Source of the DNA: an uncultured Caulobacterales bacterium
GTDB lineage: Bacteria; Pseudomonadota; Alphaproteobacteria; Caulobacterales; Maricaulaceae
Direction: 5' to 3'
Assembly (NCBI GenBank): GCA_938009235.1
Contig: CALLIK010000004.1
Coordinates: 1-64,000 of the forward strand
Length of the DNA stretch: 64,000 nt
A program made the position numbers and the translations under genes. The notes under the pieces are model-generated. The model was not told the DNA's origin, ran no database searches, and saw only the letters and a list, made by a program, of their open reading frames with translations. How positions within the stretch are numbered: the stretch's first letter is position 1; every line of letters starts with the position of its first letter. Shown here one piece after another: positions 59,075-60,342 of the stretch.

Positions 59075-59551
59075 ATGTCCACGCCCCCCTCTAAATCAGT
59101 TCCGCCCTTTTGGAAAACCAAAACTATGGCAGAAATGAGCCGAGAGGAGTGGGAAAGCCTCTGCGATAGCTGTGGTAAGTGCTGTTGCATACGTTTGGAA
59201 GACGAAGATACAGGTGCAATCTACATTACGGACGTCGCTTGCAAGCTGTTCGACCCGAATACGTGCCGCTGCGGAGACTATGCGAATCGCTCGAAACTCG
59301 TCCCAGATTGCGTGACCTTGACGCCTGTGAATGTCGATCAACTGCATTGGATGCCGCAAACCTGTGGTTATCGCTTGGTTGCGGAAGGCAAAGACTTACC
59401 CGAATATCATCATCTTGTGTCGGGCTCTCGCGACACAATTCATGAAGTTGGCATGAGCGTACAAGACGCGGTCACAAGTGAAATCCTCGTCAAAGAAGAC
59501 GACATCCCAACACGTATCGTGATTTGGCCAGGCGAACCTGATATAAATTAA
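59075..59551 (+). CDS. YcgN-family cysteine-cluster protein
   Basis: LCDSCGKCCCIRLEDEDTGAIYITDVACKLFDPNTCRCGDYANRSKLVPDCVTLTP. Confidence 0.92.
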   Translation: MSTPPSKSVPPFWKTKTMAEMSREEWESLCDSCGKCCCIRLEDEDTGAIYITDVACKLFDPNTCRCGDYANRSKLVPDCVTLTPVNVDQLHWMPQTCGYRLVAEGKDLPEYHHLVSGSRDTIHEVGMSVQDAVTSEILVKEDDIPTRIVIWPGEPDIN

Positions 59552-59594
59552 GGACAGGATAAAACCTGTTCAGAATTCAAGCAAAACTATGCAC

Positions 59595-59615
59595 CCGAAC
59601 CGCATGGCGGTTCGG
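59595..59615. repeat. Perfect hairpin
   Basis: CCGAACCGC-ATG-GCGGTTCGG, 9-bp stem. Confidence 0.9.
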
Positions 59616-59811
59616 CGCTACACTACAATCGACTCACAGTATCGATTGCGGACGTTTCGCGCCTCAGAACCACTTCAGTTCCTGTATCTCTTAGTTGGAA
59701 AAACTCCCAGTTACGGGGTGTTCGCGAGGGTATTTCAAGGCCCGGCGGAACCGGAAAAAATAGTAGTGTTTTCGGCCGCAAAGGGACCCTAGCGATAACG
59801 CCTTTTTCCTC

Positions 59812-60096
59812 GTGCAATTCTGTTAATTCGGAATCAAAAATTGGGCGAAGGTTGCCCAATTTTTGATAACCACACGCTGTGTGTAAACAGAAATGCACAA
59901 ATCGGCCGAGCATAACAGTCGAGGTTACAACAGCTCTCAATCAGCCGCCCAAATCCGCTGACATTACCCAGCATCATCCGACGACAAGCGTTACTTCTCT
60001 CGGATCCGTGCATTTCTGTTTTGCTCAAAGCATATGAGTATCGAAAAATGAGTAAGCTTCACCAAGTTTTCGATACCTCATCAAACAGAATTGCAC
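59812..60096. repeat. 285-bp element of nested perfect inverted repeats with two internal hairpins (MITE-like or structured RNA)
   Basis: GTGCAATTCTGTT 59812-59824 complements AACAGAATTGCAC 60084-60096; AACAGAAATGCAC 59886-59898 complements GTGCATTTCTGTT 60008-60020; hairpins 59833-59867 and 60034-60081. Confidence 0.85.
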
Positions 60097-60342
60097 TTAG
60101 TCAATGTGCACATGACCGCCCGTTGAAAGAAGACAGCCTTAAAATGATACAGCTTTCGAGACTCTGGATCATTCTCTAGTATTTAGGTGTAAGGGCTTGA
60201 AAATAAAGGACGTTAGTTTTTCTAAAGCGGGGATTGTTATTTTTAAACGCCCCTTAAATCATCGAGAACGGGCATTAGCAAGTGTCTTACTTCGGGCGAT
60301 TTTAGGACGCTGATAAACGTCTAGTATGACAATAGCAGTGGA

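Follow-up and report, generated by a model that had tools for sequence, protein, structure and literature searches.

Bacterial genes for structural RNA can carry hairpin inserts. In Salmonella, for example, some copies of the 23S rRNA gene hold inserts of 83 and 99 nt in two helices, and these are excised by RNase III (PMC2672173). Such intervening sequences (IVS) are also found in the 23S rRNA of Coxiella and of Alphaproteobacteria (PMC4990558). Other short palindromes are extragenic, as in the case of the REP/BIME elements, which RAYT (Y1) transposases mobilize. The Rickettsia palindromic elements are dispersed short palindromic units with conserved ends, and they are tolerated inside genes. 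Among the RNAs themselves, GOLLD, OLE and HEARO are hundreds of nucleotides long, have many covarying helices, and are intergenic.

The window analyzed here (the whole stretch of DNA, 64,000 nucleotides) comes from a genome that appears, judging from its sequence, to belong to the marine genus Litorimonas. On its minus strand, a copy of a structured RNA gene at 59662..60169 (508 nt, with the 5' end near 60169 and the 3' end near 59662) is interrupted by two palindromic units. Unit A, an 87-bp insertion of the form GTGCAATT...AAATGCAC, occupies 59812..59898 on the plus strand, and unit B, of 89 bp, lies at 60008..60096 on the minus strand. The RNA segment that separates them (59899..60007, minus strand) contains consensus helices 4 to 9. 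A is located in the single-stranded junction leading from helix 7 to the 3' strand of helix 4, and B in the internal loop leading from helix 3 to the 3' strand of helix 2. One palindromic insertion unit is present here twice, facing opposite ways, in loop or junction positions: A and the reverse-complemented B align as one family once they are oriented by the inner hairpin, and both are absent at their sites in orthologous copies of the RNA.

Like the 23S rRNA IVS of helices 25 and 45, the units are about 80–110 nt long, have complementary ends that form a stem, and occupy two insertion sites in a multicopy structural RNA, each in a fixed helix or loop. They are sporadic, in that some copies have them and others do not (PMC2672173, PMC4990558). 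They differ from IVS in several ways. The host is an unclassified RNA rather than 23S rRNA (a search of the window against Rfam gave no rRNA), one and the same unit faces opposite ways at the two sites, and some of the units are found away from the RNA. Excision by RNase III, which is known for IVS, may apply here by analogy.

The initial annotation had described 59812-60096 as one 285-bp element of nested complementary repeats with internal hairpins. The four 13-mers it listed (59812, 59886, 60008, and 60084) are all present, and complementarity is perfect within both the outer pair (59812/60084) and the inner pair (59886/60008). The hairpins also pair as described, with a perfect 14-bp stem in unit A (59833..59867; 59833-59846 with 59854-59867) and, from sequence and helix counts, a 14-bp stem with one bulged G in unit B (60034..60081; 60034-60047 with 60067-60081). 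The inverted 13-mer repeats of this region exceed chance. Only four inverted 13-mer pairs no more than 300 bp apart occur anywhere in the 64 kb of the window, and this region accounts for three; 20 simulated windows gave a mean of 0.4 and a maximum of 1. On both strands, the predicted fold of the region is also more stable than those of dinucleotide shuffles, by 4.4–4.6 sd.

What does not survive is the single element. Some copies of the host RNA have A alone, some B alone, some the two together, and some none, and this independent coming and going rules out one 285-bp MITE with 13-bp ends. The limits 59812-60096 instead mark part of a larger multicopy unit, 59662-60169, with conserved sequence continuing to about 60311. 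The complementarity of the outer and inner 13-mers is explained by A and B being one unit in opposite orientations. In the same way, the A/T difference matched on both arms, which had been read as a possible sign of selection for pairing, arises because one asymmetric unit was inserted in two orientations. Selection for A–B pairing is excluded, since the complementarity is imperfect in the other two-unit copies (L069 and L082). Of the options once offered for the region, MITE-like insertion and structured noncoding RNA are each partly supported, for different layers. The first is right for a short palindromic insertion with inverted-repeat ends and wrong for one symmetric 285-bp element; the second is right for the host sequence that carries A and B and wrong for the 285 bp as one element. 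Neither a replication or partition site nor a folded single-stranded DNA recombination substrate found support.

BLAST searches brought up many further copies in the same genome, and among the 40 relatives searched the matches fell almost only within the genus. The RNA locus of the window has as its syntenic anchor the gene of a YcgN-family cysteine cluster protein (59075..59551, plus strand). Empty sites, which the initial annotation had suggested looking for, do exist at this locus, where the orthologous copies of three relatives, downstream of the same gene, lack both units (L104 in genome G005, L108 in G010, and L300 in G013). Other orthologous loci differ in their units as well; for example, L067 has A and both L084 and L096 have B. 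Across all aligned copies, the orientation of the unit never varies at site 1, nor does it at site 2. Counted among the retrieved loci rather than over whole genomes, the GTGCAATT...AAATGCAC units come in a short form of 26–29 bp and a long form of 81–89 bp, and nearly all of the long units found are inside the host RNA. Position 6 of the ends is mismatched (A.A, or T.T on the other strand) in 32 distinct units and pairable in 1, and because some of the 32 are related copies, they do not represent 32 independent events. When 22 long units are aligned, compensatory changes are seen in the inner hairpin, and 10 of the 13 outer pairs are invariant.

Units are also found in other loops of the host RNA, namely, the helix-9 hairpin of L181 and L187 (both in G004) and of the subfamily copy L078, and, in G008, G002, and G012, the segment that separates helices 10 and 11. 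A few lie outside the RNA (L099, L045, and L182), which means that the RNA is not their sole target. One of these isolated units (L045; G004:C44:6962-6997) is situated just upstream of an ORF that by eye resembles an alcohol dehydrogenase, and it could affect the leader of this adjoining gene.

The host RNA is about 330 nt long without its inserts. An earlier plus-strand model (R1) still detects copies of it, and a minus-strand model (R2) is the better of the two, with a match in the window at 60169-59662 on the minus strand (212.6 bits). The plus-strand RNA was dropped, as the mismatches of R1 are A.C where the minus strand has G.U, and the fit to the minus strand is much closer. That strand has 434 G.U pairs compared to 69 A.C mismatches, folds better in 26 of 26 copies, and gives a unit-free consensus fold (26 copies) of −140.7 kcal/mol versus −112.2 for the plus strand. 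The consensus built from 22 unit-free copies has 81 pairs in 12 helices, with 95.8% of the cells paired; in slid controls, the paired fraction is at most 48%. Double (compensatory) changes occur at 31 of the pairs. None of 500 shuffles reached the observed covariation score, number of paired cells, or number of compensated pairs. The closing helix (columns 19-31 with 340-351) is supported by conservation more than by covariation.

Judged by Rfam and by the open-access literature searched, the host RNA is apparently an undescribed family. A search of Rfam 15 with the window region and six copy loci, on either strand and at a permissive threshold, returned sub-threshold matches only. A known RNA was rejected as the host, with no Rfam family above its gathering score and no tRNA or tmRNA, and no description of the RNA or the repeat was seen among the papers that the open-access searches listed. 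By simple ORF calling, the copies are intergenic in all but two of the 59 examined. No protein family was seen to recur beside them apart from shared synteny, and the neighbors show no clear bias in orientation (57 loci with both neighbors called). The region preceding the RNA 5' end (about 140 bp; 60170..60311 in the window, minus strand) is partly conserved in both subfamilies of the RNA. This suggests a promoter, and because of this conservation the host is probably an independently transcribed noncoding RNA, whose transcript would start near the AGAGATGCATCC block. The RNA resembles GOLLD, OLE, and HEARO in its hundreds of nucleotides, many covarying helices, and intergenic position. Unlike them, it has no match in Rfam 15 on either strand, has been seen in one bacterial family only, and reaches 15 copies with apparent gene conversion.

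The copy in the window is one of about ten. The search with R1 found the RNA in 12 of 18 Litorimonas genomes, with 1–15 copies each (15 in G013), along with weak matches in three sister genera of the same family and none among 288 other Alphaproteobacteria sampled. Because R2 is the more sensitive model, the RNA may range more widely than this. R2 recognizes copies in three sister genera (G115, G050, and G130), as well as a divergent subfamily in the window genome (L073-L076, L078, and L079). A 33-base conserved pattern is also present in contigs of L. cladophorae KCTC 23968, a genome with 15 copies, and of uncultured Caulobacterales MAGs; with regard to viral carriage, the pattern has no exact match in IMG/VR. 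Draft contigs (G005, G010, and G016) often end inside RNA copies, and the copy numbers of draft genomes are therefore lower bounds. Many copies are at orthologous places in several species. Over the whole core, and in a small set of copies, identity is 0.80 between paralogues within a genome, compared to 0.72 between orthologous loci and 0.72 between other pairs from different genomes. That paralogues are more alike than orthologues suggests gene conversion. In the block at the RNA 3' end, no such excess likeness of within-genome paralogues is seen.

The explanation preferred here, which is somewhat probable, is that A and B are IVS-like hairpin insertions that have spread among the copies of an undescribed multicopy RNA. 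In the transcript, the unit would fold out as a self-contained hairpin made of a 13-bp outer stem with one fixed mismatch, followed by the inner hairpin. Such a hairpin would be tolerated, as intervening sequences are in 23S rRNA, because it sits where extra RNA is harmless, and RNase III may, by the same analogy, remove it. Gene conversion would be the main process by which units, and domains of the RNA, are copied from one locus to another, and this would lead to the sporadic presence of units at two fixed sites and in fixed orientation. The unit may first have entered by template switching or through a transposase that acted on its ends. Counting against this explanation are the few units that lie outside the RNA and the predicted fold of the window copy, which pairs A with B and not each with itself; when both folds were computed for the plus strand, the one with each unit paired to itself came out weaker than the A–B fold by about 6 kcal/mol.

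One could also consider the units to be ordinary palindromic MITEs that prefer DNA hairpin loops and are moved by a putative transposase, with their position in the RNA due to the choice of target and without any function as RNA. This is rather unlikely. The terminal inverted repeats with conserved asymmetric ends (the 32 to 1 count at position 6), the 10 of 13 outer pairs that never vary, and the isolated copies outside the RNA all agree with it, but the one fixed orientation at each of sites 1 and 2 in every aligned copy and the near restriction of long units to the RNA do not. A clean target-site duplication, which the initial annotation had proposed as a check, was not seen by eye at sites 1 and 2 or at the isolated copies, and a few loop bases are replaced. 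The units share their short palindromic form, conserved ends, and dispersal with palindromic MITEs and the Rickettsia elements; in contrast to these, they are concentrated in one RNA family. They are similar to REP/BIME as short extragenic palindromes, but the Y1 transposase domain is absent from all 18 Litorimonas genomes in a search with positive controls.

It is very improbable that A and B belong to the RNA as optional peripheral stems, gained and lost as structural domains. They do extend loops of the RNA, with compensatory changes in the inner hairpin, but an invading sequence is indicated by the finding of one unit at two sites, facing opposite ways, in further loops in other species, and away from the RNA as well. 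About as improbable is a host RNA that is itself mobile, as an orphan guide or retroelement RNA (like the omega RNAs of IscB/TnpB or group II and retron RNAs), since its dispersal at 1–15 copies per genome, strong structure, and intergenic position would suit this, but many copies are at orthologous loci in several species, the TnpB domain is absent in the genus (controls working), the 15-copy genome G013 has no reverse transcriptase, a search without a working positive control found no IscB RRXRR domain, and there is neither an Rfam match nor a recurrent neighboring protein. Y1 transposase, TnpB, and reverse transcriptase, not found in these searches, were thus set aside as drivers of the unit or the RNA.

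The IVS-like explanation of the inserts belongs to a broader picture, on which belief and doubt are evenly balanced. Litorimonas and its relatives would have an undescribed, multicopy family of large RNA with its own conserved promoter, homogenized by gene conversion and with its fold kept by compensatory changes, that hosts IVS-like mobile hairpins, in which one mismatch close to the ends is fixed. For bacteria, it is unusual to find a structured RNA of this size (about 330 nt) that reaches 15 copies in a genome, has no place in Rfam, and is linked to no protein gene. As far as the searches reach, the inserts resemble known kinds (IVS-like hairpins or palindromic MITEs), and it is the host RNA that is the undescribed part. 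It offers a new RNA family to study, with inserts that parallel the hairpin inserts of ribosomal RNA. The natural series of loci with and without inserts allows IVS-like tolerance, excision, and spread to be studied outside rRNA. Also, domains change together within a species while base pairs are kept, which makes the coevolution of paired sites under apparent gene conversion testable.

A wider query shows a mosaic of modules, running from 59590 to about 60311. One of these is a separate, dispersed palindromic repeat at 59590..59661, which abuts the RNA 3' end as a neighbor outside the unit. It is 72 bp long, consists of CCGAACCGCATGGCGGTTCGG plus CAATCGA...TCGATTG, and is present in many Litorimonas genomes. 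Repeats of this type are often right beside the RNA 3' end and sometimes beside a unit (L120).

The second, divergent subfamily of the RNA comprises L073, L074, L075, L076, L078, L079, and L312-L316 (the CCTGTCC.ATGTCCGAAAGAAC type, on the plus-core strand) and has the same conserved upstream region as the first. In G002, G008, G012, and G016, this type is found downstream of ycgN, so the two RNA types can apparently replace one another at a single locus. Beside the RNA copy of G050 lies a long GC-rich palindrome that is nearly perfect, CCACCCGACCACCCA...TGGGTGGTCGGGTGGG (L264:1937-2040), and a similar one flanks L270 in G004. At the ycgN locus of L. cladophorae (L300), the RNA copy is immediately adjoined on its upstream side by an ORF that resembles an IS1595-type transposase, at the point where the conserved upstream sequence stops.
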